NCBI RefSeq assembly: GCF_003971255.1
Contig: NZ_CP034660.1
Span: 2,604,001-2,668,000, forward strand
Direction: 5' to 3'
Origin: Colwellia sp. Arc7-635
GTDB lineage: Bacteria; Pseudomonadota; Gammaproteobacteria; Enterobacterales; Alteromonadaceae
DNA length: 64,000 bases
Made by a program: the position numbers and the translations under genes. Position 1 is the first letter of the stretch; every line of letters begins with the position of its first letter. The notes below the pieces were generated by a model. The model worked only from the letters and a program-made list of their open reading frames with translations. It ran no database searches and was not told where the DNA came from. Shown in pieces: positions 39,670 to 56,368 of the stretch.

Positions 39670-41937
39670 TTAGTAAAAGTTCGCTTTAAACTCAATGCCC
39701 CAGAAACGTGGTTCGTTTGTGTAGCCAGTTAAATTGTTAAAGTCGATTGCACCAGTAAGTTGCTCTTCATCAGTAATATTACGACCAAATAATGCAACTT
39801 CATATTCTGCACCATCGGTGTACCATTCATAACCAACACGAACACCGCCTTCTAATAATGCATCACCAGTAAACTCAGTTGATTCATACAAGAAGAAGTT
39901 CACTTCACTGCGATAAGACCAATCAGTGTAAACATAAAGTTCGCCTTCACCAATTTCTTTGGTCCAACGTGCACTTAAGTTACTTATCCACTCAGGAGAT
40001 TGTGGTAAAGAATTACCGTCAATTAGTGCTAAGCCATCACCATTTATTGGGTCAGTAACAGTACAACCACCGCCACAACCAGGTACAGCAACACTACTAT
40101 CTTGTAGCTCTGTATGGTTATAACTAACACTAGCAGCAAGTACTAAATCAGCCGTTAAGTAATATTCTGAATCTAGCTCAAAACCGTACCCCACAGACTT
40201 ATCTGCATTCAGTAAACTAGCAACATTACCTGAGCCACCAACAGCAGTTAATTGTTGATCGTTAACAACGTAGTAGTATATTGAACCATCAACACGAGCC
40301 GTATTATCTAAGAATACTGATTTAAAGCCGGTTTCAACAGAGTCAACAGTTTCTGAATCAGCGGTTGTTGAATTAGCTGAGAATAATAAACTACGACCTT
40401 GAATACTTGGTGCGCGATAACCACGGGCAATACGAGCATAAATATTCGTTTCATCGTTAAGCACGTAAGACGCACTTAAATCACCACTAACTTGTGAATC
40501 ATCAACATCATTGCTTTCAGAAAAGCCTGGTGCGCCAAAAGGTGATAAGACTAACTCACCATCCCATTTACGCTCATCATCTGAATAGCGTAAACCACCA
40601 TTGATGCTTAATCTATCTGAAACTTCATAGTCTAGTGAAGCAAACACCGCCCAAGCCGATGTTTCCATTTTTTGAATAGCAAGACCGTCTTGTACGCCGC
40701 CGCCTAAGGTATTAAAGCTTAAATTATTAATGGTTAAGTCTTCATCAAACAAGAAGAAGCCAAATTGGTAATCTAATGCACCTAAGTCGTTACTCGCAAT
40801 GCGAATCTCTTGTGTAGACTGCGCATGATCTGGCATTCTAGCACCCGTTTCAGATGGGAATGGAATTAAACCTGGACCACCACCTGTAGGTAAAAATACT
40901 GCACCGTAACCGCCATCAATATCACCTACTGAAAACATTTCAGCTGATTCATGGCCGGTGATAGACGTTAACGTGTAATCACCAAAATCATATTCAATCT
41001 TTAAACTAGCACCTTTCATATCAACCGTTTGGTTGTTACGAGAAGCAGCATCATGATAAACAGTTGCACGATCAAAATTATCAACTAAGTCATTAGTACC
41101 TGGCTTGATAATGTTAGCTCTAAATACACGTGCATCGGCTTCTGCATCTCTAAAGTGGTAATTAAATAACGCTGAAAAATCGTCATTTGGCTCCCATAAT
41201 AGTTGCAAGCGCCCAGCTGTTTCGCTGTAACCACCTAATTGATCTTTCTGCTCAAAACCAGGAGCTTTGTTGTCAATCCAGTCATCGCGATCTTGTTGTA
41301 ATAAAGCAACTCGCGCTGATACAGTATCAGTTAAACCGCCACCTACAGCAACACGAAAGTCGGTTGAACCAAAGCTACCATACGAGCCAGAAATGCTAGC
41401 ATCAAAATCTTGAGTTGGCTTTTTCGATTCAACTTTAACAATACCCGCTGGTGTATTACGGCCAAATAAAGTTCCTTGCGGACCACGTAAAACTTCTACG
41501 CGTTCAATATCAAACATTGGCATACCTTTCGTTAAGGCATTTTCCAAAACAACATCATCATAAATAAGAGAAACAGGTTGTGAAGCTAGTAGATCGAAAT
41601 CTGTATTACCTAGACCACGAATATAAAAACGTGGAAAAGTACGACCAAAAGAAGACTCAATTAATAAGCTTGGTACTTTCGCAGAAAGAGATCTTACATC
41701 CATACCAGAAGAACCCAATACTTCGAGTTTTTTAGGGGTAAGCGCCGACACAGAAATAGGTACATCTTTTACATTTTCTGTACGCTTACGTGCTGTAACT
41801 TCGATAACTTCGATACCAACAACTTTGTTACTATCTATTTTTTCTTGTGCTAATGCTGATGTTGTTACACCTGCACCACACGCGAAAATAGCCGCGTTTA
41901 CACATAGTGCAAGCGACGTTTTATTGAAAACATTCAT
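39670..41937 (-). CDS. TonB-dependent outer-membrane receptor downstream of deoB
   Basis: 755-residue receptor. Signal peptide about residues 1-30 (ending SALAQ), a TonB-box-like GIEVIEVTARKR near residues 42-53, then the plug domain (VPISVSALTPKKLE, RGPQGTLFGRNTPAGIVKV). A beta-barrel follows, ending in aromatic ...FKANFY as usual for BamA recognition. It lies 90 bp after deoB on the same strand, possibly in one transcript, so the neighbourhood suggests nucleosides or related compounds as ligand. That is inference; the barrel class is also used for many other substrates. Confidence 0.92.
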   Translation of the reverse strand: MNVFNKTSLALCVNAAIFACGAGVTTSALAQEKIDSNKVVGIEVIEVTARKRTENVKDVPISVSALTPKKLEVLGSSGMDVRSLSAKVPSLLIESSFGRTFPRFYIRGLGNTDFDLLASQPVSLIYDDVVLENALTKGMPMFDIERVEVLRGPQGTLFGRNTPAGIVKVESKKPTQDFDASISGSYGSFGSTDFRVAVGGGLTDTVSARVALLQQDRDDWIDNKAPGFEQKDQLGGYSETAGRLQLLWEPNDDFSALFNYHFRDAEADARVFRANIIKPGTNDLVDNFDRATVYHDAASRNNQTVDMKGASLKIEYDFGDYTLTSITGHESAEMFSVGDIDGGYGAVFLPTGGGPGLIPFPSETGARMPDHAQSTQEIRIASNDLGALDYQFGFFLFDEDLTINNLSFNTLGGGVQDGLAIQKMETSAWAVFASLDYEVSDRLSINGGLRYSDDERKWDGELVLSPFGAPGFSESNDVDDSQVSGDLSASYVLNDETNIYARIARGYRAPSIQGRSLLFSANSTTADSETVDSVETGFKSVFLDNTARVDGSIYYYVVNDQQLTAVGGSGNVASLLNADKSVGYGFELDSEYYLTADLVLAASVSYNHTELQDSSVAVPGCGGGCTVTDPINGDGLALIDGNSLPQSPEWISNLSARWTKEIGEGELYVYTDWSYRSEVNFFLYESTEFTGDALLEGGVRVGYEWYTDGAEYEVALFGRNITDEEQLTGAIDFNNLTGYTNEPRFWGIEFKANFY

Positions 41938-42027: not shown

Positions 42028-43251
42028 TTATTTTTTAAAATTTAAATCAGCTAAGAAACTTGTACCGTACGGCATTTTATTTAATTCAAAAAGTTCTGCC
42101 AAGGTTTGACCTAAATCAGCAAAGGTACTTCTCTCACCCAAATCGACTGATGATATATTGTGGTGATAAGCTATCATCGGGACATACTCTCTCGTATGAT
42201 CATTACCAGGCCATGTTGGATCACAACCATGGTCAGCGGTAATAAATAGTATATCTTCTTCGCCCATGGCTTGATAAACATCTTCTAAGCGGGTATCTAA
42301 ATACTCTAATGCTTGTGCATAGCCAACAGGGTCTCTGCGATGACCAAAGTCTTGATCAAAGTTAACTAAATTAGTAAATATTAAACTATTGTCTTTAGCA
42401 CGATGAATATGTTCAATGGTGCTATCAATAAGTGCAGGTAATCCCGTTGCTTTTGTTTTTTCAGAAATGCCCTGATGAGCAAAAATATCAGCAATTTTAC
42501 CCACACTAATAACATGTCCACCTGCAGCAGAAAATTTATCAAGTAATGTTTTAGCGGGTGGTAAAACTGAGTAGTCACGTCTATTGCCCGTACGAGTGAA
42601 GCTTGCAGGGTCTTCACCAATAAATGGTCGGGCAATGACTCTGCCAATATTTAAGTTTTCTTTATCAAGTAACGCTCTGACTTGTTCACAATAGGTATAT
42701 AAATTATCTAAACCGAAATGCTCTTCATGTGCAGCTATTTGAAATACACTATCAGCTGAAGTATAACAAATAGGTAATCCTGTATTAATGTGCTCTTGGC
42801 CTAAAGCAGCAATAATATCAGTGCCTGAAGCATGACAATTACCGAGTATGCCAGAAAAGTTAGTCGCTTTATTAACCTTCTCAATAAGGTCTTTTGAAAA
42901 GCTTTCTTTTCTATTCAAAAAATATCCCCAATCAAAAAGCACAGGGACTCCCATCATTTCCCAATGACCACTGGGTGTATCTTTACCGGTACTAATTTCT
43001 GCTGCATAACCAAAGGCGCCTTTATCTGGCAACACGCCTTCATAAGGAAAGGTTAAATCAGATGCTTGTTCACATGCGCTCACTAAACCAAGAGAAGAGA
43101 GTTTTGGTATCTTGAAAGCTTTACCTGTTTGTTGATGAAAGGCAATCGCAAGGTTAGCAAATGTATTAGCTGAAACATCACCAAAGGCTGCCGCGTCAGG
43201 AGCGTGCCCTATACCTAAACTATCAATAACTAAAATAATTGCTTTTGCCAC
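42028..43251 (-). CDS. deoB: Phosphopentomutase DeoB
   Basis: Interconverts (deoxy)ribose-1-phosphate and (deoxy)ribose-5-phosphate, linking nucleoside phosphorolysis to DeoC. The 407-residue alkaline-phosphatase-superfamily protein has metal motifs IILVIDSLGIGHAPDA and ITADHGCDPTWPGNDHTREYVP. The start is GTG with AGGA about seven bases upstream. It diverges from udk; a RutR-like operator lies in the 349-bp gap. The gene sits apart from deoA/deoC, which are usually adjacent in E. coli. Confidence 0.97.
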   Translation of the reverse strand: MAKAIILVIDSLGIGHAPDAAAFGDVSANTFANLAIAFHQQTGKAFKIPKLSSLGLVSACEQASDLTFPYEGVLPDKGAFGYAAEISTGKDTPSGHWEMMGVPVLFDWGYFLNRKESFSKDLIEKVNKATNFSGILGNCHASGTDIIAALGQEHINTGLPICYTSADSVFQIAAHEEHFGLDNLYTYCEQVRALLDKENLNIGRVIARPFIGEDPASFTRTGNRRDYSVLPPAKTLLDKFSAAGGHVISVGKIADIFAHQGISEKTKATGLPALIDSTIEHIHRAKDNSLIFTNLVNFDQDFGHRRDPVGYAQALEYLDTRLEDVYQAMGEEDILFITADHGCDPTWPGNDHTREYVPMIAYHHNISSVDLGERSTFADLGQTLAELFELNKMPYGTSFLADLNFKK

Positions 43252-43482: not shown

Positions 43483-43496
43483 TGACCATATGGTCA
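43483..43496. promoter_or_regulatory. RutR-like operator between deoB and udk
   Basis: TGACCATATGGTCA, a perfect 14-base palindrome matching the core of the E. coli RutR consensus TTGACCA-N2-TGGTCAA. It lies 104 bp before udk and 232 bp before deoB in the 43252-43600 gap, which otherwise holds no gene. A related site precedes cdd and another precedes the second TonB receptor/regulator pair. Confidence 0.75.
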
Positions 43497-43600
43497 GGTT
43501 ATGATAAGATCTAACAAATATATATATTTTACTTCTCAGTATCTAAGCTAGATAATATAAAGTAATTAATTGAAGTGATAAATTAGGAAAGGTCAACATT

Positions 43601-44245
43601 TTGCAAACCAATAAACCGACTATTATTGCGGTAACTGGTGCTTCAGCATCAGGTAAATCTCTTTTTGCGCAAACTATTTACGATGAACTCCTTCCTGAGC
43701 TCGGGCCAAGCGGTATTGCCATCATTAAAGAAGATTCGTATTACAAGAGTCAATCCCATCTATCGATGGAAGAGCGCATTAAAACAAATTATGATCACCC
43801 TAGTGCTTTTGAACATAGTCTATTGTCTCAACATTTAACGCAATTAGCGTCAGACGGTGAAGTCGACATCCCCACTTATTGCTATAAAACACACACTCGC
43901 CTAGATGAAACCCTACGTTTATCAACCACACCAATTATATTGGTTGAAGGTATTCTATTGTTTTCTGATAAAGAACTACGCGATAAGTTTGATATTAAAA
44001 TCTATATTGATACACCATTAGATATTTGTTTGGTGCGCAGAATAAACAGAGACACTGTCGAACGTTCTAGAAGCATTGAATCAATCACAGAGCAATATTT
44101 AACTACCGTTCGTCCTATGTATCATCAATATATTGAACCGAACAAACCCTTTGCCGATGTTGTTGTTACCCGTGGTGGTAAAAACAGAATGGCAATTGAA
44201 ATGTTAAAGGCGAAAATTCGTCAAGTTATGCATAGACGTTCATAG
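43601..44245 (+). CDS. udk: Uridine kinase
   Basis: Phosphorylates uridine and cytidine to UMP/CMP. The 214-residue P-loop protein has GASASGKSLFAQTIYDEL near the N-terminus, KEDSYYK, NYDHPSAFE, and the lid region RRINRDTVERSRS. The start is TTG with an AGGAAAGG ribosome site, since no suitable ATG is nearby. It leads a run of udk-nupC-deoC-tdk. Confidence 0.94.
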   Translation: MQTNKPTIIAVTGASASGKSLFAQTIYDELLPELGPSGIAIIKEDSYYKSQSHLSMEERIKTNYDHPSAFEHSLLSQHLTQLASDGEVDIPTYCYKTHTRLDETLRLSTTPIILVEGILLFSDKELRDKFDIKIYIDTPLDICLVRRINRDTVERSRSIESITEQYLTTVRPMYHQYIEPNKPFADVVVTRGGKNRMAIEMLKAKIRQVMHRRS

Positions 44246-44326
44246 CACTTTACGAACGAGCTAACCCACAATAAAAATAATTAGAATAAATCTAATAAAG
44301 ATAACAAAGTAATTTATGAGGTAAGT

Positions 44327-45568
44327 ATGGAATTAGGTGCACTTAGAGGTGTCATTGGCATTTTCGCGCTATTAGCAGTAGCGTTCTTTTTATCAAAAGA
44401 TCGCAAAGCAATTAATTGGCGAACAGTAGGGTTTGCATTTTCTTTACAAATTATACTCGGTGCATTTGTACTGTATGTACCTTTTGGTAAAGATGTTTTA
44501 GGCTCGGTCACCAATGGTGTTCAACAAGTTATTAATAGCGCACAAGCCGGCATTAATTTTTTATTTGGCGGTTTAGGCACCGATGCCATGTTTGATAATG
44601 GTGTTGGTTTCGTTTTTGCTATTCGTGTGTTACCGGTAATTATATTTTTCTCATCACTTATCGCGGTACTTTATTATTTAGGTATTATGCAATGGGTAGT
44701 GAAAATAATCGGTGGCGGTTTGCAAAAGTTATTAAAAACTTCAAAACCTGAATCCTTATCTGCTACCGCTAATATCTTTGTTGGCCAAACAGAAGCTCCT
44801 TTAGTTATCCGCCCTTATATCGCAAAAATGAGTCAGTCTGAGCTTTTTGCTATTATGGTCGGCGGCTTAGCATCTGTAGCGGGCTCTATTCTTGCCGGTT
44901 ATGCTGGCTTGGGTGTCAAACTTGAGTATCTAATTGCCGCATCTTTTATGGCTGCACCTGGTGGTTTGTTAATGGCGAAGTTATTAATGCCTGAAACTGA
45001 AACTATCAACAATGACTATAGCGATGTTGAGATGGACCAAGACGATAAACCAGCTAATGTCATCGACGCAGCAGCCACTGGCGCTGCTTCGGGCTTGAAG
45101 CTGGCTGTTAACGTTGGTGCTATGTTACTTGCCTTTATCGCTATCATCGCTTTATTAAACTCAATGGTCTCTGGCATTGGTGGCCTACTTGGCTACGAAG
45201 GTATTACGATTGAATGGATGTTAGGCTATATTTTTGCACCATTTGCATTCCTTATCGGTGTGCCATTTGATGAAATGCTGCAAGCTGGCAGCTTTATCGG
45301 TCAAAAAGTTGTCGTCAATGAGTTCTTTGCTTATGTAAACTTTGTTGAAATAAAAGATACGCTATCTCCAACAACTCAAGCCATTATTACTTTTGCTTTA
45401 TGTGGTTTTGCCAACTTATCTTCAATCGCTATCTTATTGGGTGGTATTGGTTCTATGGCACCTAATCGCCGTCCTGATATTGCACGCTTAGGTATGAAAG
45501 CTATGTTAGCTGCTACCATGGCTAACTTAATGAGCGCCGCAATTGCGGGTGTATTCGTTAGCTTATAA
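44327..45568 (+). CDS. nupC: Concentrative nucleoside transporter (CNT/NupC family)
   Basis: Inner-membrane ion-coupled nucleoside importer. The 413-residue protein has about ten hydrophobic segments and conserved CNT motifs GQTEAPLVIRPYI and NEFFAYVNF, the family substrate and cation sites. GAGGT precedes the ATG. It lies between udk and deoC, giving import next to salvage and catabolism. A terminator follows, so deoC may have its own promoter. Confidence 0.95.
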   Translation: MELGALRGVIGIFALLAVAFFLSKDRKAINWRTVGFAFSLQIILGAFVLYVPFGKDVLGSVTNGVQQVINSAQAGINFLFGGLGTDAMFDNGVGFVFAIRVLPVIIFFSSLIAVLYYLGIMQWVVKIIGGGLQKLLKTSKPESLSATANIFVGQTEAPLVIRPYIAKMSQSELFAIMVGGLASVAGSILAGYAGLGVKLEYLIAASFMAAPGGLLMAKLLMPETETINNDYSDVEMDQDDKPANVIDAAATGAASGLKLAVNVGAMLLAFIAIIALLNSMVSGIGGLLGYEGITIEWMLGYIFAPFAFLIGVPFDEMLQAGSFIGQKVVVNEFFAYVNFVEIKDTLSPTTQAIITFALCGFANLSSIAILLGGIGSMAPNRRPDIARLGMKAMLAATMANLMSAAIAGVFVSL

Positions 45569-45616
45569 TATTTTAATTAGCCGTTAAGCATTAACGCAAT
45601 TAGCTAAACATCTAAA

Positions 45617-45646
45617 AGCCTAGCCCTCTGTGCTAGGCTATTTTTT
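45617..45646 (+). terminator. Terminator after nupC
   Basis: AGCCTAGC / GCTAGGCT stem with a 7-base loop and a T-run, 49 bp after the nupC stop. Confidence 0.75.
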
Positions 45647-45673
45647 AACTTTTTATAAATTATGGGGTATATC

Positions 45674-46447
45674 ATGAGTACTACACAAACCTACGCACAA
45701 CGTGCACTTCATATGATGGACTTAACAAGCTTGACTGACTGTGAAAGTTCTGACGATATTATTCAACTTTGTCAAAATGCTAAATCAGCTTGTGGTAACA
45801 CCGCGGCTATTTGTATTTTTCCGCGTTTCGTACCACTAGCAAAGAAAACCTTGGCATTACAAGGCACGCCTGAAATAAAAATTGCCACGGTAACGAATTT
45901 CCCACACGGTAACGATGACATCGAAATTGCGGTTGCTGAAACCAAAGCCGCTGTAGCTTATGGTGCAGACGAAGTAGATGTTGTTTTCCCTTATCGCGCA
46001 TTAATCGATGGCAATGAAGAAGTTGGCTTTGAGTTAGTAAAAGCGTGTAAACAAGCCTGTGGTAATAACGTACAACTGAAAGTGATCATTGAAACAGGGG
46101 AACTTAAAACTGACCAACTTATCATCAAAGCAAGTGAAATTTGTATTGCTGCCGGTGCTGATTTTATCAAAACATCGACCGGTAAAGTTGCGGTGAATGC
46201 AACACCAAAATCAGCTGAGTTAATGCTAAAAGTTATTAAAGATAAAAACACAAATGTAGGTTTTAAACCAGCTGGTGGCGTAAAAAACGCGGAAGATGCA
46301 GCAGTTTATCTTGATTTGGCAAGTGATATTTTAGGGGCTAATTGGGCAACGAAAGCTAACTTTAGATTTGGTGCTAGCAGTTTACTAACGAACTTGTTAA
46401 ACACGTTAGGTGCTAGCGATAAAACGGCAGATCCAACAAGTTATTAA
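45674..46447 (+). CDS. deoC: Deoxyribose-phosphate aldolase DeoC
   Basis: Splits deoxyribose-5-phosphate into acetaldehyde and glyceraldehyde-3-phosphate. The 257-residue TIM-barrel protein has the Schiff-base lysine segment DFIKTSTGK and conserved [15 protein letters not shown] and [10 protein letters not shown]. The ATG at 45674 is chosen because GGGG lies eight bases before it; an upstream ATG at 45662 contains that site. Last step of the deoxynucleoside route present here. Confidence 0.97.
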
Positions 46448-46566
46448 GTTATCATATAGCGCTTAAGTTAGCGTACAAAGTTTACATTGAAGGTTAATGC
46501 GACAAGTTAGCACTTGCATTAATGGCTTAACCCAAAAATAATCATTATTAGGATATCAATATAGCC

Positions 46567-47148
46567 ATGGCACAATTATATTTTTATTATTCCACCATGA
46601 ATGCCGGAAAATCGACGCATTTATTACAATCTTCATATAATTATCGTGAACGTGGTTTAGAAACCTTGCTGTTTACAGCAAAAATCGATGATAGATTTGC
46701 TGAAGGTAAAGTATCATCTAGATTAGGTATTCACGCTGACGCACGATTGTTTGATGACAGTACTGATGTTTTTGACGACGTAAAACAACAAAGTCAACAG
46801 ACCAAAATCGCCTGTATATTGATTGATGAAGCACAATTTTTAACCAAACAACAAGTAAAGCAATTAACTGACATTGTTGATGAATTAAAAATTCCAGTAC
46901 TTGCTTATGGTATTCGTACTGACTTTTTAGGTGAAACCTTTGTCGGTAGCGCCGCCCTACTTGCCTGGGCTGACAAATTAGTGGAATTAAAAACCATTTG
47001 TCATTGTGGTAAAAAAGCAAACTTCGTCATGCGCTGCGATGAGCACGGTAATGCCGTGATCGGTGGTGAACAAATTGAAGTTGGCGGAAATGAACGTTAC
47101 GAGTCTTTATGTCGTAAGCATTTCAAGGCCCTTGTTTGGGAGCAGTAG
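46567..47148 (+). CDS. tdk: Thymidine kinase
   Basis: Phosphorylates thymidine to dTMP (salvage). The 193-residue TK1-type protein has the P-loop [13 protein letters not shown], Walker B-like [10 protein letters not shown], and zinc-ribbon cysteines in [13 protein letters not shown] and a final Cys near the C-terminus. It follows deoC by 119 bp with no terminator seen. A strong terminator lies between it and the convergent deoA. Confidence 0.97.
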
Positions 47149-47205
47149 AAACTTACAAAGGCACTAAAACAAAGCAATTAAGTACTTTAAAATAGCTTTA
47201 TGACG

Positions 47206-47234
47206 AAAAAAGGAATGCTATGCATTCCTTTTTT
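47206..47234. terminator. Bidirectional terminator between tdk and deoA
   Basis: Arms AAAAAAGGAATGC / GCATTCCTTTTTT, a perfect 13-bp stem with a TAT loop. Confidence 0.93.
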
Positions 47235-47252
47235 GTTTTCACACCTTAAACG

Positions 47253-48569
47253 TTATGCTGAAATAGTTTGATAAATAACCGGAGGTTGTTCCGCTTGTTT
47301 TTCATTAATCACTAATGCATTAAGATATTGCTCGCCGGCTTGTAATGCTGCACTTTCATCGCTTGCATGAACACGTGCTACCACATCACCACGATTAACT
47401 AAGGTGCCGATAGGTAATATTCTATCAAAACCAACACTGTGATCAATTTGTTGACCATTAGCAGTACGACCGCCTTTTAAGCCAACAACAGCCATACCGA
47501 TGTCACGGGTTTGCATGCCAACAATGTAACCATGTCCTGGTGCAATAATATCTTTGATACACTGACCACGTTGCATTGAACGCCAAGGATCTTCCATAAA
47601 GTCGCTTGGTCCACCTAATGCGTGAATCATTTTACCAAAAATTTCAGCGGCAGCACCTGATGCCAATACAGCGTTAATTTTTTCTAACGCTTGTGCTTCA
47701 TCTGTCGCCACTTTAGCGCTAACGAGCATAGCTTTCGCCAATGCTACTACCACAGCATGTAAACGTGGCTCTCGTAATGAACCATTCAAGTATTTAACCG
47801 TTTCAGCCATTTCTAGCGCATTACCGGCTGTAGCACCTAATACTTGGTTCATATCAGTAATAATCGCTTGTGTTGGTACACCTGCGCCATTAGCTACGTT
47901 AACAATACTTTGTGCTAGAGCTCTAGCATCGTCAATATTTGACATCATAGCGCCGTTGCCGACTTTAACGTCCATAACCAAAGAATCAAGGCCTGCTGCT
48001 AATTTTTTAGATAAAATAGAAGCCGTGATTAACGGTATAGATTCAACCGTAGCGGTAATGTCACGTATACCATAAAGTCGCTTATCTGCTGGGGCTAAAT
48101 TATCAGTTTGAGAGATAATCGCCATGCCTAAGTCTTTAACAATACGCTTAAATTCACCAATACTTGGTTGAACATTAAAACCAGCAATACTTTCTAGTTT
48201 ATCAGACGTACCACCGGTATGGCCTAGACCACGACCAGAAATCATAGGTACATAAGCGCCACATGCAGCTACAATAGCAGCTAACATAAAGCTGACCTTG
48301 TCACCTACACCACCGGTTGAATGTTTATCAACAACCGGACCGTCTAATTCTGGCCAAGATAAAACATCACCTGAATTTTTCATCGCCATGGTAAAATCGA
48401 TAATTTCACGAGTTTCCATGCCTTTTTGAAAAATAGCCATCGCCATTGAACCTGCTTGAGCATCATTAAAATTTAATGTTACTAAACCGTCGACAAAACT
48501 TTGAATCTGTTCTTGGGAGAGTGAACCACCATCACGTTTGGTGCGAATAATTTCTTGCGGTAATAACAT
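47253..48569 (-). CDS. deoA: Thymidine phosphorylase DeoA
   Basis: Phosphorolyses thymidine/deoxyuridine to free base and deoxyribose-1-phosphate. The 438-residue protein has the family signature MISGRGLGHTGGTSDKLE and phosphate-binding KHSTGGVGDKVSF. It starts 12 bp after cdd and shares its promoter and operator. Its product thymine is one of the known RutR ligands in E. coli, which would link catabolism to induction. Confidence 0.97.
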   Translation of the reverse strand: MLLPQEIIRTKRDGGSLSQEQIQSFVDGLVTLNFNDAQAGSMAMAIFQKGMETREIIDFTMAMKNSGDVLSWPELDGPVVDKHSTGGVGDKVSFMLAAIVAACGAYVPMISGRGLGHTGGTSDKLESIAGFNVQPSIGEFKRIVKDLGMAIISQTDNLAPADKRLYGIRDITATVESIPLITASILSKKLAAGLDSLVMDVKVGNGAMMSNIDDARALAQSIVNVANGAGVPTQAIITDMNQVLGATAGNALEMAETVKYLNGSLREPRLHAVVVALAKAMLVSAKVATDEAQALEKINAVLASGAAAEIFGKMIHALGGPSDFMEDPWRSMQRGQCIKDIIAPGHGYIVGMQTRDIGMAVVGLKGGRTANGQQIDHSVGFDRILPIGTLVNRGDVVARVHASDESAALQAGEQYLNALVINEKQAEQPPVIYQTISA

Positions 48570-48581
48570 TAACTTTAATCC

Positions 48582-49001
48582 TTATAGTTCAAGTAAATCT
48601 TTTGGCGTAAAAGCATCGGGTAATAACTGATTAACTGTCCATTGCTTTTTATCGTTGTTATGGTTAACAGCCATAACTAATGCATCGGGTGCTAAAAATT
48701 CAACAATCACTTGTCGACAAGCACCACAAGGCGGCGTTAGCTTTTCTTGATTGGTATAAATAACAATCGCAGAAAACGCTTGTTCACCTGAAATCACACC
48801 TTGTGCTAAACAATTGCGTTCAGCACAAACCGTTAAGCCATAAGAGGCATTTTCAACGTTACAGCCTTTGACAATATTGCCATTAGTGGTTAACGCAGCA
48901 GCACCGACATGAAAGTTGCTATATGGTGCGTAAGCTTTTGCAAAGCCATCTTTTGCGGCTTCAACAAGCGCTGAGATTTCATTATCTTTAATATTTGACA
49001 T
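48582..49001 (-). CDS. cdd: Cytidine deaminase
   Basis: Deaminates (deoxy)cytidine to (deoxy)uridine. The 139-residue small homotetramer-type protein has zinc site VENASYGLTVCAERN (Cys-Ala-Glu) and PPCGACRQVI (Cys-x2-Cys). The ATG at 49001 is preceded by AAAGGG; the frame also opens at a TTG two codons earlier. It leads the cdd-deoA operon, with a RutR-like palindrome directly upstream. Confidence 0.96.
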   Translation of the reverse strand: MSNIKDNEISALVEAAKDGFAKAYAPYSNFHVGAAALTTNGNIVKGCNVENASYGLTVCAERNCLAQGVISGEQAFSAIVIYTNQEKLTPPCGACRQVIVEFLAPDALVMAVNHNNDKKQWTVNQLLPDAFTPKDLLEL

Positions 49002-49017
49002 TATCAAACCCTTTAAC

Positions 49018-49031
49018 TGACCATTTGGTCA
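49018..49031. promoter_or_regulatory. RutR-like operator and promoter of cdd-deoA
   Basis: TGACCATTTGGTCA; read on the minus strand it is TTGACCAAATGGTCAG. It lies 17 bp before the cdd start. Upstream on the minus strand a TTGCTT and a TAGGAT with a 17-base spacer form a plausible sigma-70 promoter, so the palindrome would cover the transcription start, a classic repressor position. Confidence 0.75.
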
Positions 49032-49164
49032 ACTTATTAACTATCCTAATAAAATAATCCATAAAAAGCAACTGAAGAATGAGTGAATACAACACTTTAT
49101 CGATATAAATATGGGTTAAGAATTTATCAGCTATAAAAATAATAACTGGAATAAAATGCAAAAA

Positions 49165-49192
49165 AAAAGCCAGCATTTAAATGCTGGCTTTT
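49165..49192 (-). terminator. Terminator after the Oar-like receptor gene
   Basis: Perfect palindrome AAAAGCCAGCATTT / AAATGCTGGCTTTT with an A-run on the plus strand, 18 bp after the receptor stop. Confidence 0.9.
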
Positions 49193-49210
49193 ATTACGAG
49201 TTAAGTTGTA

Positions 49211-52200
49211 TTAGAACTTGTAGCTAACACCAACTTTTACGCGCCATGTAGAATCAGCTGCATAAAATTTATTACTGTTAGTTGTAGGATTAGTGTATTG
49301 GTATTTTCTTGTTGCTGGGTCAATAGTAAATTCAACCAACTCAGACGTACCAAAATCATTTCCGTAAACTTTACCTTTACTATGGTCAATCATGTTAAGG
49401 AAGTTATCAACAGTAAAATAAACAATCGCTTTATGATCTTGCGAGAATCCAGGAATTTCTTGACGAACACTTAAATCAAGTGTTGTTACCCAAGGTGTAG
49501 TGATCACGCCTTTAGGTAAATAACCGCCTGCATACTTGTCTAAACCAAGCGCATTAATGTTATTGTAGAAATCAGTTTTATCTTGCTCAGTTAAGAATGT
49601 AACGTTTGAATCATCTTGCGTTGGAATATATGGCAAAAATGCATCTTGCGTTGCGCCTGGGCTTAATAAACCGTAAGGGTCACTTAAACCACCACGTACA
49701 CTGTTTCCGTCAGCAAAATAACTTACCGGACGACCTGAACGACGTTCAAAGAACATGTTGATATTAGTTTTATAACCTGAAACAAACTCTGCTTCATAGC
49801 CAAGGTTTAATACAAATCTATGCTCTGTTTCAAAGCTTGAGCGACCCACTAAAGATTCATTACGGTTAATAACAGGGTTAAAACCAAAGTTACTACCAGC
49901 TGTTGAGCTGCTGTTCGCATGTGAATCTGTGATGTCTTGATTGGTATATGATGTAGTCATGCTAACACCACTGTCCCAGCTTTTATTTAATACTAAGCTC
50001 AGTATTTTCGAACGACCTTCAGTATCTGCATTAGTTAGCATTAAGTCATTTGTTCGACCAGTAGGATCATTGTAAATTGTTCTGCCGCCATCTGCGGTAG
50101 TACCATCTTCAGTGCCAGTTAGTGTTACATCTTTCCAAAACGCAGTATTCTCAGGTTTTTTGTATAAGTACTCTGCTGTCAATAAGAAATTATCACCAAT
50201 TACTGGGATATCGAAACGATAATCCGCAGCTATTTGATAACGCCAATCTGATGGAATTTCAAAGTTTGGATCGCTGAAGTTAGTACCTGTAAACTCGGTA
50301 GAGTTAGCTACAGCATCCATATCTTCTTGACGAGGGCCAGAAATATCAACATTTTCAAATGCACCATTCAAGAATACATCGCCGATACCAACGCCTGGAT
50401 TAGAGTAAGCGTTTGAAATCCAAACTGTAGGTTGTCCACCTGCGAAGCGACCAAAACCACCTCGAACTACTAATTCATCAGTTGCATCCCACTTAAAGCC
50501 AAAGCGAGGAAGAACAATATCTAAACCGTCAAGGTTTTCAGTGTTGTTATAACCTGTACGATCGTACATCTGACCGTTAAATTCAGGCTTGTCATCAGAA
50601 GATAAACGTTCATAACGAATACCAAAGTTTAACGTTAAATCGTCCGAAAATGCCCATTCATCTTGAATGTAAAATGCATGTTCATCACGAACAAATTCTG
50701 CAGCAGCATCATCTGGGTTTAAACTTGTAGCATTTTTATAGATAATACGTGAAGCAATTTGGTTTTCAAAATCTTCAATACTAGCAAATTTATAATCGCC
50801 TCTTGTATTTTGCAAAAACAGATTGAAAATATCTAAACGTTTAAATTGATAACCAGCAGTAATCGCATGATCACCTACTAAGTAATCCGCATCAAATGAC
50901 GTAATAAATGTCTTTTTATGTAATTCATTTGAATGACGTGAGTGATCAGAACCAATGGCAATATCACCTGATGCAGCTTCAATCACGGTATCAGAGAAAT
51001 CACTTAATGATGCTTGTGTTGTTGGATTATCTAAGTAAGTAACACTTATTTGTGTTGAAAAGTCATCATTCCAATCAGAATAGAATTTAAGCGCATAGTT
51101 ATTTAACTCTTCAGTACGGTCATACCAATGAGATGAAAGTCTTAACTCACGTCCGCTTGTAGACTGGTTACGTGTGCTGTTACCTTTCGTAAATTGATAA
51201 GTGAATGCTGCACGGTGATCATCATTGATATTCCAATCTAGTTTCAATAGGAATTTTTCATCATCAATTTTCGGTGCAGAATTCCAATCACCTGCATCAA
51301 GACCATAAACCTCTTGAGCTATTCGTTGAACTTCTGCAACGTCAGTTGAGCTCGCTTCTGCGCCATTAGCAACATTTGCGTCACCTGGACCCCATTCAAC
51401 AGGAGAAGTAGCGTCATAATATTCATAAGAAGCAAAGAAGAACAACTCATCTTTAATAATTGGGCCACCTAAAGTAGCACCAAAAGTTGTTTCATCAAAT
51501 TCTAATGGCTGTTTGTTACCATTATCATTTGGCTTTCCTGCTAAACCATCATTTTGTGTTTCATAGAAAAATGAACCTGATAGCTCGTTAGTACCCGATT
51601 TAGTAACCGCGTTAATTTTTGCACCTTGGAAGCCACTATCTTTTGCATTGAATGGTGTTACATCAATAGTAATCTGTTCAATTGCATCAAGAGAGATTGG
51701 TGAACGCGTTGTAGGGTAACCGTTAGCATTAAGACCGAAATCATCGTTTTGTCCAATACCATCAACACTAATGCTGTTAAAACGAGGATTTGAACCAGCA
51801 ACACTCAATTCGCCATTTACAGGAGAAAGAACCGCTAGTGGGTTATTACGAACAATATCTTTAATATCACGGTCAAAACTTGGTGCATTAGTAATATCTT
51901 CAGAGCCAAAGTAGCTGTTGCTACCTATATTACCCTGTAAAATGCTGCTACCAGTGATTGAGATTCTTTCTATTTGCTGTTTAGGCTCAAGTTGTACATT
52001 TAATTTAAATGTATCACCTAATGTTAAATAGACGTCATTGTAAGTATTAGCGCCATCTTTACCTGTGATGGTAACTTTGTAAGGACCACCTACACGTAAA
52101 CCACGACTTGAAAATGAACCAGAATCGTTCGTTGTCGTTGTTGTTTTTCTGCCTGAAGGTATATGCAAAATTTCAACTTGAGCATTTACCGAGCTTTCGC

Positions 52201-52324
52201 CGGCCGGGTTCAAAATACTGCCGCGAATTGCAGAAGATGTGTCATCTGCCATGGCTGATGTTGACAATCCTAGTGCAAGTACAACTGCGCCAGTAATACG
52301 TGAGAGACGATGATTTTTCATCAT
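49211..52324 (-). CDS. TonB-dependent receptor, Oar-like with N-terminal carboxypeptidase-regulatory domain
   Basis: 1037-residue outer-membrane receptor. Signal peptide about residues 1-26 (ending SAMA). A carboxypeptidase-regulatory-like beta domain follows (about 30-115, with GSILNPAGESSVNAQVEI), then a TonB-box-like RISITGS, the plug (DIKDIVRNNPLAVLSPVNGE, GAKINAVTKSGTNELSGSFF) and a long barrel ending VGVSYKF. This architecture is typical of Oar receptors in marine proteobacteria. It sits between cdd and the RutR-like regulator, which makes a nucleoside, nucleotide or nucleic-acid fragment ligand plausible but unproven. Confidence 0.93.
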   Translation of the reverse strand: MMKNHRLSRITGAVVLALGLSTSAMADDTSSAIRGSILNPAGESSVNAQVEILHIPSGRKTTTTTNDSGSFSSRGLRVGGPYKVTITGKDGANTYNDVYLTLGDTFKLNVQLEPKQQIERISITGSSILQGNIGSNSYFGSEDITNAPSFDRDIKDIVRNNPLAVLSPVNGELSVAGSNPRFNSISVDGIGQNDDFGLNANGYPTTRSPISLDAIEQITIDVTPFNAKDSGFQGAKINAVTKSGTNELSGSFFYETQNDGLAGKPNDNGNKQPLEFDETTFGATLGGPIIKDELFFFASYEYYDATSPVEWGPGDANVANGAEASSTDVAEVQRIAQEVYGLDAGDWNSAPKIDDEKFLLKLDWNINDDHRAAFTYQFTKGNSTRNQSTSGRELRLSSHWYDRTEELNNYALKFYSDWNDDFSTQISVTYLDNPTTQASLSDFSDTVIEAASGDIAIGSDHSRHSNELHKKTFITSFDADYLVGDHAITAGYQFKRLDIFNLFLQNTRGDYKFASIEDFENQIASRIIYKNATSLNPDDAAAEFVRDEHAFYIQDEWAFSDDLTLNFGIRYERLSSDDKPEFNGQMYDRTGYNNTENLDGLDIVLPRFGFKWDATDELVVRGGFGRFAGGQPTVWISNAYSNPGVGIGDVFLNGAFENVDISGPRQEDMDAVANSTEFTGTNFSDPNFEIPSDWRYQIAADYRFDIPVIGDNFLLTAEYLYKKPENTAFWKDVTLTGTEDGTTADGGRTIYNDPTGRTNDLMLTNADTEGRSKILSLVLNKSWDSGVSMTTSYTNQDITDSHANSSSTAGSNFGFNPVINRNESLVGRSSFETEHRFVLNLGYEAEFVSGYKTNINMFFERRSGRPVSYFADGNSVRGGLSDPYGLLSPGATQDAFLPYIPTQDDSNVTFLTEQDKTDFYNNINALGLDKYAGGYLPKGVITTPWVTTLDLSVRQEIPGFSQDHKAIVYFTVDNFLNMIDHSKGKVYGNDFGTSELVEFTIDPATRKYQYTNPTTNSNKFYAADSTWRVKVGVSYKF

Positions 52325-52647
52325 ATTATTCCTTGGTAATAGTTAAATTTTGTTATGTAAAATGTTTAATTTAGTTTCACTTAGCTAATTTTTAATCTAT
52401 TTATTATTTTTATAAGTGTATTTCGGGTGAAATTAGAACAGAGTTTTCTTACATTTTCATTACAAAAATTTACAAGTTTGTTTTCAGTTATTTTCATCTT
52501 TAAAATAAACTCAAGAATAAAACAAAACAGTTCAACTTAATCCTATAACTAACAATACGTTAACTTAAAAATTAAAACACAAGCAAAAAACACTTATAAC
52601 CAAAACCAAGTAAAACCAAATTACATATAACAAAAAATCATAAAAAC

Positions 52648-52661
52648 AAACCATATGGTCA
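52648..52661. promoter_or_regulatory. RutR-like operator between TonB receptor and rutR-like gene
   Basis: AAACCATATGGTCA: the ACCATATGGT core and the right half TGGTCAA fit the RutR pattern, the left half is degenerate. It lies in a 693-bp gene-free gap, 324 bp from the receptor start and 357 bp from the regulator start. The gap is very AT-rich and no other gene is seen. Confidence 0.6.
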
Positions 52662-53017: not shown

Positions 53018-53650
53018 GTGAGCAACAATACCACTACTGAAAAGCAAGGAAGCATTAGGGCAAGAAGTGAAGCTATTATTTTAGCTTCGGCCCAAAAAGA
53101 GTTTATCTTGCAAGGATATAAAGGCGCAACGGTGCAATCTATTGCCGACACCGCAGGTCTGCCGAAAGCAAACGTACTGTACTACTTCAAAAATAAAGAA
53201 AATATCTATCATGCCGTATTACAATTAACGCTAGATACATGGGACCAAGGTATTGGTGACATCGACAGTAGCGATGGCCCTGTTGTTGCCATTGAAAAGT
53301 TTATTGCTGCAAAAGTCAAAATGTCATTTGAACATCCGCAAGCGTCAAAAATTTATGCCATGGAAATTATTCAAGGTGCACTGCATCTAAAAGAATTTGC
53401 CCGTACTTATTTACGTCAATGGGTACGAGAAAAAGCCAAGTTGTTCCAAGTGTGGATTGATAGCGGTGAAATGGTCGATGTAGATCCCGTAAAATTGATT
53501 TTCTTGATTTGGTCTTCTACTCAGCATTATGCTGATTTTGAACAACAAATATTGACCATCATGAATCGTGCTGATTATGAAGAAGACGATATGACCCAAG
53601 TCACCAATTTTCTAACAGACTTTGTATTACGTGGTTGTGGCTTAAAGTAG
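53018..53650 (+). CDS. rutR: TetR-family regulator closely resembling RutR
   Basis: 210-residue repressor/activator. The helix-turn-helix spans about residues 36-60 (ATVQSIADTAGLPKANVLYYF). The ligand domain shares long stretches with E. coli RutR, notably PQASKIYAMEI and IWSSTQHYADF (about residues 164-174). RutR binds uracil and thymine and controls pyrimidine use in E. coli. GTG start with GAAAGG nine bases upstream. It is followed after 12 bp by a secreted phosphodiesterase-fold gene and then an alkaline phosphatase, likely one operon. RutR-like operators occur at three points in the surrounding locus. Confidence 0.87.
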   Translation: MSNNTTTEKQGSIRARSEAIILASAQKEFILQGYKGATVQSIADTAGLPKANVLYYFKNKENIYHAVLQLTLDTWDQGIGDIDSSDGPVVAIEKFIAAKVKMSFEHPQASKIYAMEIIQGALHLKEFARTYLRQWVREKAKLFQVWIDSGEMVDVDPVKLIFLIWSSTQHYADFEQQILTIMNRADYEEDDMTQVTNFLTDFVLRGCGLK

Positions 53651-53662
53651 GAATATATCAGC

Positions 53663-54877
53663 ATGAAAATTTTAACGCATTTATTAGCAACAACCTTGTT
53701 AGTATATTCGGGGATAGCTATGTCAGAAACAACCGAGCAATCTTCATCGAAGTTACGTATTGCCACTTTCAATGTCAGTATGGAAGCTTTAAATTACTTA
53801 CCCTCAACGCCAGGAAAAGAGGTTCACGTTAAGGGCAATGAATTAGCCTTAGCACTCGCCCAAGATCACCAACAAATAAAAAACATTGCTGAAATTATTC
53901 AACGCGTTAATCCTGATATCATTTTATTGAATGAGTTCGATGGTAATGACGAAAATCATCAATCATTAAAGCTTTTTTTAACAAAATACTTAGCCAAAGG
54001 GCAGCAAGGTAATAGCGCCGTTAGCTACCCTTATTTTTATCAAGGTCCCGTTAATACCGGTGTTGCGACATCGTATGATTTAAATAATGACGCTAAAAAA
54101 GGCCAATTGCCTGGTGATGCTTATGGCTATGGTCATTTCTCGGGTCATTTTGCGATGGCGCTTTTATCTAAGTATCCCATCAATGTTGATGAAGTCAGAA
54201 CATTCCAGTTATTTAAATGGCGTGATATGCCAAACGCATTGATGCCTGTAGAGCCAAAAACTCAGCGCCCTTGGTATAGTGCACAAGCATGGAATAATTT
54301 TCGATTGTCATCAAAATCTCACTGGGATATTCCGGTTAACGTTAATGGCAACGAATTGCACATATTAGCAAGTCACCCTACTCCACCAGTTTTTGATGGT
54401 CCAGAAGACAGAAACGGCAAGCGAAACTTTGATGAATTACGTTTTTGGATTGATTATTTAACCCCAAGCGCTGCCAGTTATATTTATGATGATAACAATC
54501 ACTTTGGTGGCTTAGCTAAAGACAAAGCCTTCGTTATTTTAGGTGATTTAAATGCCGATGCTATTGATGGCAATGCAATAAAATCTGGCATTCATCGTTT
54601 AACACATCACCCTCGCATTATCGATCCTCAACCCCGAAGCGAAGGCGGTAAAATGCACAGAAAAGACAACCCGAATGCCCAGCATCATACGGCATTTTGG
54701 GGTATGCGCGCCGACTACGTTTTACCTGCTAAAGCGCAATTGAACGTTCTCGACGCTGGTATTTTTTGGCCACAAGTCAACGAGCCAGAATTTCGCTTAG
54801 TTAAAGACCGTGCAGCATCGTCTGATCACCGACTTGTGTGGGTAGATCTGACATTTAAAAATTCACCTGACAAATAA
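53663..54877 (+). CDS. Secreted endonuclease/exonuclease/phosphatase-family protein
   Basis: 404-residue protein with a signal peptide (about residues 1-20, ending GIAMS). It has the full EEP (DNase I-like) catalytic set: RIATFNVS (Asn37), IILLNEFDG (Glu91), ILASHPTPP (His), GDLNAD (Asp, Asn), MRADYVLP and SSDHRLVW. The fold includes nucleases, phosphodiesterases and lipid phosphatases. Context, between a RutR-like regulator and a phosphatase, favours periplasmic or extracellular cleavage of nucleotides or nucleic acids. The substrate is not proven. Confidence 0.85.
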   Translation: MKILTHLLATTLLVYSGIAMSETTEQSSSKLRIATFNVSMEALNYLPSTPGKEVHVKGNELALALAQDHQQIKNIAEIIQRVNPDIILLNEFDGNDENHQSLKLFLTKYLAKGQQGNSAVSYPYFYQGPVNTGVATSYDLNNDAKKGQLPGDAYGYGHFSGHFAMALLSKYPINVDEVRTFQLFKWRDMPNALMPVEPKTQRPWYSAQAWNNFRLSSKSHWDIPVNVNGNELHILASHPTPPVFDGPEDRNGKRNFDELRFWIDYLTPSAASYIYDDNNHFGGLAKDKAFVILGDLNADAIDGNAIKSGIHRLTHHPRIIDPQPRSEGGKMHRKDNPNAQHHTAFWGMRADYVLPAKAQLNVLDAGIFWPQVNEPEFRLVKDRAASSDHRLVWVDLTFKNSPDK

Positions 54878-54940
54878 CTGCTTAAACTTAACAAAAAGCT
54901 GAGCGGTTATATTTATCTCAAACATTTAGTGGAAACAAAG

Positions 54941-56368
54941 ATGAAAAAATTCATTCCTACATTATTAACTAGCCTATTGGTCATGTCATGTAGCCAATTA
55001 CAAGCTGACACTAGCACGCAAGCAAGTACGGTTATTGCTGATGCCGTGGCCGTTAGTGCGCCACAAAATATTATTATGATCGTTGGCGATGGTATGGGCC
55101 CTGCCTATACTAGCGCTTATCGCTATTTTCACGACAATCCAAACACCGACGTTATTGAAGAAACGGTATTTGACCGTCACCTCGTTGGTATGAGCAGTAC
55201 TTATCCTGCTCGCATTTCTGGCTACGTTACTGACTCTGCTGCAGGTGCTACGGCACTTGCTACAGCGACTAAGTCTTATAATGGTGCTATCGCTGTTGAT
55301 GTGAATAAGCAACCGGTTGAATCAGTATTGGTTTGGGCTAAAAAACAAGGTAAAAAAACCGGTATGGTTGTGACTTCACAAATCAACCATGCAACGCCTG
55401 CTTCTTATTTAGCACATAATGAAAGTCGTAATAATTACAATGAAATTGCTGATAACTTCCTGCAAGATGCTGACAATATTGACTTAATGTTTGGTGGCGG
55501 TTGGCAATATTTCATCCGTAAAGACGTCAACCTTGTTGATGGTTTTAAAGCGAAAGGTTTTAACTATATTGATAGCTATGACCAACTTGAACAGCTAAAA
55601 AACGGTGAAAAAGCGCTTGGTTTATTCGCTGATAAAGGCTTACCTTGGGCGCTTGATGATACTAACCCACATCGTCTGTCAGCTATGACAAAAACCGCTA
55701 TCGCCCAGCTAGAAAATGAACAAGGCTTTTTTATGCTCGTCGAAGCAAGTCAAGTTGACTGGGGTGGACACGGTAATGATATCGCAGCAGCAATGGCTGA
55801 AATGGACGACTTAGCAAAAACACTTGAGTACCTTGAAAGCTACATCGCTAAAAACCCAAATACCTTGGTCGTGCTAACCGCAGATCACAGTACTGGTGGT
55901 TTTACTATAGGTAAAGATGGCGACTACTTATGGCAACCTGACGTTTTACGCAACATGATCATGTCGCCTGAAACTATCGGTAACACATTAGCAAAAGAGA
56001 AAATCGTTAAAGCTAATGTCAGTAAAATGCTTAATTTTATGATCACTGATGTTGAGTTTGATACTTTAAAAGTCGATAAAGTGAAAGCTCAAAAAGCATT
56101 GGTTGAATATAATGCCTTAAGTACTGTAGCGAAAAAACAAGCGCGTAAGCCATCATTAAATAAAGCGATGCACTTAAGTGTTAATCACATTATCGACCAA
56201 CGTACTGTCACTGGTTGGACGACATTTGGTCATACCGGTGTTGATGTACCTGTGTTCGCTATGGGCAAGCAAAAAGAGCTGTTCCAAGGTTTAAGCGATA
56301 ACACTGAAATTTCTGAAAAGATTTTTCATCTGCTAGGTAAAAATAAGCTGAGTAACAACATGTTTTAA
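54941..56368 (+). CDS. Secreted alkaline phosphatase
   Basis: 475-residue alkaline phosphatase of the PhoA superfamily. Metal-binding IIMIVGDGMG begins near residue 44, the nucleophile is the Ser of VTDSAAGATA (about residue 99), and further metal ligands lie in EASQVDWGGHGND, VVLTADHSTGGF and GWTTFGHTG. The N-terminus has a signal with a possible lipobox (LLVMSC, Cys17) as well as a possible AxA-type cleavage site, so it may be lipid-anchored. ATG at 54941 chosen over GTG at 54929. It would strip phosphate from nucleotides before nucleoside import. Confidence 0.93.
   Translation: MKKFIPTLLTSLLVMSCSQLQADTSTQASTVIADAVAVSAPQNIIMIVGDGMGPAYTSAYRYFHDNPNTDVIEETVFDRHLVGMSSTYPARISGYVTDSAAGATALATATKSYNGAIAVDVNKQPVESVLVWAKKQGKKTGMVVTSQINHATPASYLAHNESRNNYNEIADNFLQDADNIDLMFGGGWQYFIRKDVNLVDGFKAKGFNYIDSYDQLEQLKNGEKALGLFADKGLPWALDDTNPHRLSAMTKTAIAQLENEQGFFMLVEASQVDWGGHGNDIAAAMAEMDDLAKTLEYLESYIAKNPNTLVVLTADHSTGGFTIGKDGDYLWQPDVLRNMIMSPETIGNTLAKEKIVKANVSKMLNFMITDVEFDTLKVDKVKAQKALVEYNALSTVAKKQARKPSLNKAMHLSVNHIIDQRTVTGWTTFGHTGVDVPVFAMGKQKELFQGLSDNTEISEKIFHLLGKNKLSNNMF

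Follow-up and report, generated by a model that had tools for sequence, protein, structure and literature searches.

A 64,000-nt stretch of Colwellia sp. Arc7-635 DNA (NZ_CP034660.1, 2,604,001-2,668,000; the window) carries three similar palindromes among genes of nucleoside use and beside a gene for a TetR regulator, and the question that it raises is whether the palindromes are operators of that regulator, how far such a regulon extends and what signal might govern it. A first-pass annotation had placed the palindromes before deoB/udk, before cdd-deoA, and between an Oar-like receptor and the regulator, and both the sites and these neighbours are real (Table 1); two are perfect against the reference pattern used for all mismatch counts, TGACCANNTGGTCA, and the third departs from it at two positions. 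The pattern is of the RutR type, judged by the published RutR consensus. The same annotation found the pattern nowhere else in the window, which is correct at 0 or 1 mismatch and incorrect at two, where TGACCAACTTATCA at 46111 matches inside deoC. At up to 3 mismatches the window holds 24 sites against a mean of 19.5 in shuffles, which is chance level. The two-mismatch version at 52648 is nonetheless in place in 15 of the 16 same-genus genomes, being absent in G070.

Table 1. Genes and putative operators of the window (mismatches are counted against the reference pattern).
Feature	Position	Strand	Basis
deoB, phosphopentomutase	42028..43251	-	TIGR01696 over cut-off
Putative operator between divergent deoB and udk-nupC-deoC-tdk	43483..43496	.	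TGACCATATGGTCA, 0 mismatches; perfect palindrome; kept before udk
udk, uridine kinase	43601..44245	+	TIGR00235 over cut-off
nupC, nucleoside transporter	44327..45568	+	TIGR00804 over cut-off
deoC, deoxyribose-phosphate aldolase	45662..46447	+	TIGR00126 over cut-off
tdk, thymidine kinase	46567..47148	+	NF003300 over cut-off
deoA, thymidine phosphorylase	47253..48569	-	TIGR02643 602 bits, cut-off 571
cdd, cytidine deaminase	48582..49007	-	NF004064 and TIGR01354 over cut-off
Putative operator before cdd-deoA	49018..49031	.	TGACCATTTGGTCA, 0 mismatches; perfect palindrome; kept before cdd
Oar-like TonB-dependent receptor	49211..52324	-	PF25183, PF00593, PF13620
Degenerate putative operator between Oar-like receptor and regulator	52648..52661	.	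AAACCATATGGTCA, 2 mismatches; conserved
RutR-family (PF08362) TetR regulator	53018..53650	+	PF08362 153.8 bits, cut-off 25; model nearest E. coli RutR
Endonuclease/exonuclease/phosphatase-family protein	53663..54877	+	PF03372 95.6 bits
Alkaline phosphatase family protein	54929..56368	+	PF00245 313.7 bits

The 4.74 Mb genome has 4 perfect sites, the reversed control none; with a control rate of 0.32 per genome (59 family genomes) the Poisson P of at least 4 is about 3.5e-4. Two of the four lie far outside the window, before an ExeM/NucH nuclease gene and a pgi paralog, which rules out the purely local regulon originally proposed, and conserved sites also lie before carA. At up to two mismatches the genome holds 166 sites against 177 in the control, and given this lack of excess degenerate sites were counted only where conserved; counting every one of them was rejected. 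In the 35 genomes with PF08362 there are 55 perfect sites against 8 in the control, and in the 24 without it 13 against 11; a perfect site is absent in 10 of the former and present in 8 of the latter. Around perfect sites in relatives 20 stretches were inspected; in some relatives add, deoD or apt has a site upstream. Eight of the stretches have no recognised nucleic-acid link (L128, L131, L132, L138-L141, L144), two of which, L131 and L139, have their perfect sites at exporters beside unrelated TetR genes; the target list leaves out these exporter/TetR sites and the perfect sites of L128, L132, L138, L140, L141 and L144.

Comparison of orthologous loci found the window sites kept alongside the regulator. 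Among window-clade regulator loci, whose counts are not independent given their relatedness and the presence of duplicates (L066 and L137 seem to be records of a single genome), a site with at most one mismatch lies upstream of cdd in 43 of 47 and upstream of udk in all 20 with a complete 400 bp upstream, 11 of the 31 udk loci having been set aside for incomplete upstream DNA. A first count within 300 bp had found udk sites in 19 of 25; four of the six misses have less than 170 bp of upstream DNA, and the sites of L130 and L134 lie farther out. In family genomes lacking PF08362, which are also more distant relatives, none of 17 cdd and 23 udk regions has a site even at two mismatches, the E-value limit having removed a single match for each gene (L288 for cdd, L312 for udk), and 150 permuted palindromes matched a mean of 0.03 loci each. 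The arms of the palindrome are kept while spacer and distance vary, with 11 of the 16 possible dinucleotides in the spacers of 64 sites that were themselves picked by arm match. Judged by their sequence, the palindromes are not chance.

The distant sites were followed in the 16 same-genus genomes, all of which hold the regulator at no less than 90% identity, and before exeM, pgi and carA alike the pattern ranked 1/180 among permuted palindromes. All seven same-genus exeM orthologs counted (L145-L151; homologs from L153 on were excluded, the match beginning inside the gene) have a site with at most one mismatch; the homolog L152 (57% identity) has none, and nine of the 16 genomes have no full-length exeM match. 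Such a site precedes pgi in 8 of 13 same-genus orthologs with at least 91% identity and is absent in the other five, all with the regulator, as it is from the nearest copies (77-83%) in the remaining three genomes. The carA site of the Colwellia genome has one mismatch and starts 273 bp before carA; sites with at most two mismatches occur in 14 of the 16 genomes, and these are weak, with one mismatch only in the genome's own copy and another permuted palindrome reaching 9/16. In G003, which lacks the regulator, no site precedes the carA gene (90% identity). The E. coli carAB box fits the same pattern with one mismatch and starts 291 bp before carA; the regulon had been held to differ from the carAB targets of RutR, and yet the carA site seems kept here.

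The regulator itself had been called RutR-like, which is borne out by family and fold and not by closer measures. Its TetR_C_3 and TetR_N domains (PF08362, PF00440) are over cut-off, the latter with 42.2 bits against 24, while the RutR equivalog profiles are missed (TIGR03613, 165.7 against 368 bits; NF011584, 143.5 against 230). Identity with E. coli RutR is 34.5%; the figure for the genome's purine-cluster paralog is 37%. In a quick tree with a long E. coli branch, L235 and L236 join E. coli RutR (SH-aLRT 100) and the window clade stands elsewhere on a separate deep branch, where the two nearest relatives checked (L099, L103) have their regulators in xanthine-dehydrogenase clusters. The uracil-contacting W77, W167, Q171 and Q179 are kept and are invariant in 28 aligned sequences, W167 being replaced by F in two clade members (L062 and L083); position 97, where Y97 makes a water contact to uracil, is F. 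An alignment-based fold model (pLDDT 85.8), which replaced a poor single-sequence fold (pLDDT 42.1), has only E. coli RutR chains at Foldseek ranks 1-8, with TM 0.74-0.84 by query length. In the E. coli rutA-rutR interval the best match to the pattern has three mismatches. By profile score, identity and tree position the regulator is no RutR equivalog.

RutA has no match in the Colwellia genome and is over cut-off in 0 of 40 genomes searched, so that the reported absence of a rut operon holds for this marker, the sole rut gene searched. Dihydropyrimidinase has no match over cut-off in the Colwellia genome either; as far as these two markers tell, the cell has none of the known routes for degrading uracil, which could therefore persist as a signal. 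The endonuclease/exonuclease/phosphatase-family gene adjoins the regulator in 51 of 53 loci, and the N-terminus of its product looks by eye like a signal peptide.

Given that the same type of operator stands before exeM, the oar receptor, the regulator-phosphoesterase-alkaline phosphatase genes, deoB/udk-nupC-deoC-tdk, cdd-deoA and the pgi paralog, with a weaker form before carA, we think it probable that the regulator runs a scattered regulon of nucleic-acid scavenging with the palindromes as its operators. ExeM would cleave DNA outside the cell, and the fragments, the putative substrate of the Oar-like receptor, would enter by way of this TonB-dependent protein. Phosphoesterases would then remove phosphate and NupC import the nucleosides, from which Cdd, DeoA, DeoB and DeoC would pass deoxyribose to glycolysis while Udk and Tdk carried out salvage; Pgi would hand on fructose-6-phosphate of pentose origin. 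Without substrate a dimer of the regulator would sit on the operators and repress uptake and breakdown, and, as in E. coli, it may act in support of carAB from a distant upstream site; a base freed by breakdown would enter the two-tryptophan pocket, and the protein would leave the DNA. Promoter scans placed no convincing promoters under the putative operators, and repression is therefore something that we infer.

As to the inducer, thymine, one of two bases initially suggested, is doubtful, given that, according to part of a review, E. coli RutR has uracil and not thymine for its physiological ligand (PMC6245113); uracil, which DeoA may release, is the leading candidate, with chances that we regard as evenly balanced. 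The same operators and regulator could instead answer to a purine base (hypoxanthine or xanthine, for instance), which we consider rather unlikely and which keeps some weight because the nearest regulator relatives sit in purine clusters, as beside the xanthine dehydrogenase genes of L099 and L103. A relative in a third clade (L142) has a perfect palindrome before xdhA, the pocket residues do not separate the groups, F at position 97 is common to many purine-cluster relatives, and the sites before add, deoD or apt point the same way. However, the most constant targets are the pyrimidine genes cdd, deoA, udk and tdk, carA sites are kept, and E. coli RutR binds uracil according to the portions consulted of PMC10891134 and PMC6245113.

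Exclusive repression of the scavenging genes is likewise only one mode of action; the varying site distances, and the activation of carAB by RutR in E. coli (stated in part of PMC6245113), would suit a regulator that activates, or does both, but the putative operator of cdd sits where bound protein would block, 16 bp before the likely ATG at 49001, and activation or a dual role appears improbable. It is more improbable still that the sites serve another TetR protein, whether the purine-cluster paralog or some unrelated one: the palindrome does occur at the exporters beside unrelated TetR genes, and one such genome (G019) lacks PF08362, but the paralog's own cluster has no site with at most one mismatch, its recognition helix reads ARANIHYY against PKANVLYY, and the sites at cdd and udk track the window clade. 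A separate operator TGTCCA-N2-TGGACA for the paralog was ruled out, no site with at most one mismatch being found in L044. That the palindromes have no operator role, being chance, inherited sequence or RNA hairpins, would fit the chance level of degenerate sites genome-wide and the listing of a terminator-like hairpin of five pairs for the palindrome at 43483, but is scarcely credible given that arms are kept while spacer and distance vary, that cdd and udk sites are missing from PF08362-less genomes and that scans list nothing terminator-like at 49018 and 52648.

Extracellular DNA is an important source of phosphorus, nitrogen and carbon in the seafloor, as stated in the abstract of PMC8289736, and the scavenging regulon proposed here yields a candidate regulator, exact putative operators and a set of targets through which a culturable marine group might use it, together with a proposed substrate for the Oar-like receptor. 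More tentatively, with chances somewhat short of even, nucleic-acid foraging in Colwelliaceae might have as its master switch a RutR-family repressor that senses a base and shares its branch with regulators of purine catabolism, coupling secreted nuclease, TonB-dependent uptake, phosphate stripping, nucleoside import, deoxyribose breakdown and sugar-phosphate disposal, set against de novo carbamoyl-phosphate synthesis, with a signal that is a base for which the cell, having neither RutA nor dihydropyrimidinase, would lack both known routes of degradation.

With E. coli RutR (YcdC), the uracil-responsive TetR regulator of rut and carAB, the window regulator has in common PF08362, the fold, the uracil-stacking tryptophans with the glutamines, the operator pattern and a site far upstream of carA; it differs in its 34.5% identity, scores below the equivalog cut-offs, deep separate branch and exchange of Y97 for F, and Colwellia, unlike E. 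coli, has no RutA gene and carries its sites in front of genes for a nuclease, a receptor and nucleoside use. The finding is also a warning that where a RutR-like protein occurs with an operator of the RutR type, a rut regulon need not follow. In E. coli the deo genes and nupC, for nucleoside uptake, are repressed by CytR and DeoR, which belong to other protein families with other operators and effectors than the window regulator. The literature searched yielded no regulon of the RutR type that serves the use of DNA or nucleosides in this group, though an earlier prediction may stand in the supplementary target tables of PMC5343134, which lay outside the search. The part of that work compared predicts RutR regulons in Proteobacteria (68 genomes, 13 groups, 10.9 genes on average), labels them pyrimidine catabolism and names neither a nuclease nor a nucleoside transporter nor a deo gene as target; overlap in the tables is possible. 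The same part describes HypR regulons in Alteromonadales, in which one regulator likewise serves secreted hydrolases (collagenases), a TonB-dependent transporter and catabolic genes, there for proline/hydroxyproline and with a different regulator. In related bacteria, DeoR* and PnuR of Shewanella are likewise predicted to exert local control of nucleoside use, and these differ in being Crp-family regulators (PMC3223726, in the part compared).

The palindromes preceding deoB/udk and cdd-deoA are perfect copies of TGACCANNTGGTCA in a motif scan of the window, and the third, in front of the Oar-like receptor and regulator genes, is AAACCATATGGTCA, with two mismatches, both in one arm. All three stand where the first-pass annotation had placed them, and the case for them has been strengthened. 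The genome is a single contig of 4.74 Mb (window at 2604001-2668000), and a scan of its whole length, as proposed in that annotation, gave four perfect sites against none for the reversed palindrome used as control, while sites with up to two mismatches showed no excess (166 versus 177 for the control). Given these counts, a perfect site carries information by itself, a degenerate one only if conserved. Promoter scans at the palindromes located no promoters.

Coordinates of the regulator, its sites and related features (G000, the window's own genome; other G numbers, relatives; L numbers, stretches from relatives or from G000)
Feature	Location	Remarks
Palindrome, deoB/udk	window 43483	
Palindrome, cdd-deoA	window 49018	
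Palindrome, Oar-like receptor/regulator	window 52648	
RutR-family regulator gene	window 53018..53650 (+)	
Phosphoesterase gene	window 53663..54877 (+)	
Second TonB-dependent receptor gene	window 39670-41937	adjoins deoB; related gene kept there in G058 and G029
Second exeM site	L032:8979 (G000:C1:78978)	one mismatch; within called exeM frame, 308 bp after first
Glucose-6-phosphate isomerase paralogs (three)	G000:C1:1335939-1337612, 1439183-1440790, 3847923-3849410	only first known to have site
Site before pckA	L034:5721	one mismatch, flanks also matching (TTGACTACTTGGTCAA); ~258 bp before gene
Second PF08362 TetR gene	G000:C1:2535263-2535688 (L044:9258-9884)	outside window, inside purine cluster
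Window-clade regulator copy	L094:6485-10621	adjoins acetate-CoA ligase and deoC-like genes
Palindrome pairs at ABC exporter genes	L131 (8264, 8307), L139 (8056, 8121)	adjoin unrelated TetR genes
Perfect sites before chemotaxis-receptor-like gene	L128:8053 (G058), L132:8186 (G013)	close relatives; ~210-230 bp before gene
Sites before udk-nupC and oar-phosphoesterase pair	L143 (G035)	

Comparison of orthologous loci had likewise been suggested, and the scan took in 80 loci surrounding the regulator's relatives together with 20 stretches that flank perfect sites in relatives. Within the window clade, the regulator's own branch (SH-aLRT 100 in a quick tree, some of whose branches are long), 43 of 47 loci carry a site with at most one mismatch upstream of cdd, and in 32 of them it is perfect; 150 permuted palindromes reached a mean of 0.03 loci each and a maximum of 2. 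Upstream of udk, such a site is present in all 20 loci for which 400 bp could be scanned, perfectly matched in 19. These counts are not independent trials, because the sets include related genomes and some duplicate records (L066 and L137, for example, are on equally long contigs). The usable cdd (17) and udk (23) regions of family genomes lacking PF08362 contained no site even at two mismatches, a contrast not independent of kinship since those genomes are more distant. The spacer varies, with 11 different dinucleotides among 64 cdd/udk-type sites, which were picked by their arms. Upstream of the regulator itself, a site with at most two mismatches is found in 43/56 loci, and in 15/16 genomes within the genus.

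The description of the regulon as local was not borne out: of the other two perfect sites, one begins 106 bp upstream of the gene for an extracellular nuclease (ExeM/NucH), the other 120 bp upstream of a glucose-6-phosphate isomerase paralog (pgi). At up to one mismatch, the exeM site is kept in 7/7 full-length same-genus orthologs and the pgi site in 8/13; the five genomes without the latter have the regulator. Sites of this quality also occur, in one relative each, before genes for adenosine deaminase (followed by a transaldolase gene), transketolase, endonuclease I, deoD, adenine phosphoribosyltransferase and an MFS transporter. In L094, sites with 0 and 1 mismatch lie between the deoC-like and acetate-CoA ligase genes, and the cluster is perhaps a second deoxyribose/acetaldehyde branch. 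The PF08362 regulator of G035 belongs to a third clade and is encoded away from the L143 sites.

Perfect sites number 68 across 59 family genomes, the control 19, and they co-occur with the regulator family: 55 versus 8 in the 35 genomes encoding a PF08362 protein, and 13 versus 11 in the 24 without. The association is not strict: perfect sites are absent from 10 of the 35, and one or more occur in 8 of the 24. Eight of 20 stretches around perfect sites in relatives have no recognised nucleic-acid link, and in two stretches palindrome pairs accompany exporters beside unrelated TetR genes; within the family, more than one regulator thus uses this palindrome. The sites in L128 and L132 perhaps concern taxis towards nucleic-acid products, the gene behind them scoring below the cut-off of its named family.

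The regulator is 98% identical to its Cognaticolwellia aestuarii counterpart, which makes its host a Colwellia relative. It comprises TetR_N and PF08362 domains, and its gene is followed by that of the phosphoesterase in 51/53 loci (gaps -19 to 46 bp). Its closest solved relative, by sequence and by structure model, is E. coli RutR. Of the residues described for RutR in PMC10891134, the tryptophans that stack on uracil and both glutamines are conserved, but Y97 is replaced by F; two clade members (L062, L083) have F in place of W167. The first-pass annotation was right about family and operator type, but overstated the identity with RutR: both NCBI RutR equivalog cut-offs are missed, and identity to the E. 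coli protein is 34.5%, versus 37% for the purine-cluster paralog of the same genome. That cluster encodes xanthine dehydrogenase, allantoinase and guanine deaminase, and contains no site at up to one mismatch.

We infer repression that would be lifted by a free base. Uracil would be the preferred candidate, since pyrimidine genes are the most consistent targets and both a carA site and the pocket are retained. The carA site begins 273 bp before the gene, and its counterpart is present at up to two mismatches in 14/16 same-genus genomes, although another permuted palindrome reaches 9/16 in this region; the E. coli K-12 carAB box, which starts 291 bp upstream of carA, fits this pattern at one mismatch. 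The carA gene of the relative G003 (90% identical) has no site, and that genome has only the purine-type paralog. The inducer could possibly be a purine base instead. The nearest tree neighbours of the window clade are regulators of Oceanospirillales, Cellvibrionaceae and others, and the two checked (L099, L103) both adjoin xanthine dehydrogenase genes. The genome has no match to RutA and no dihydropyrimidinase over cut-off, the best match in the latter search being the purine-cluster allantoinase. According to a review (PMC6245113), the physiological ligand of E. coli RutR is uracil rather than thymine. The inducer originally proposed, uracil or thymine, is uncertain, and the initial interpretation as a whole is supported in part. 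From pathway knowledge, Pgi would dispose of ribose carbon via fructose-6-phosphate.

RutR, its operator and its regulons across Proteobacteria are already known from PMC5343134. A RutR-family regulon for nucleic-acid scavenging is new as far as our literature search reaches, the supplementary target tables of that paper lying outside it. The architecture has precedent, since the HypR regulons described in PMC5343134 bring secreted collagenases together with a TonB-dependent transporter and catabolic genes.
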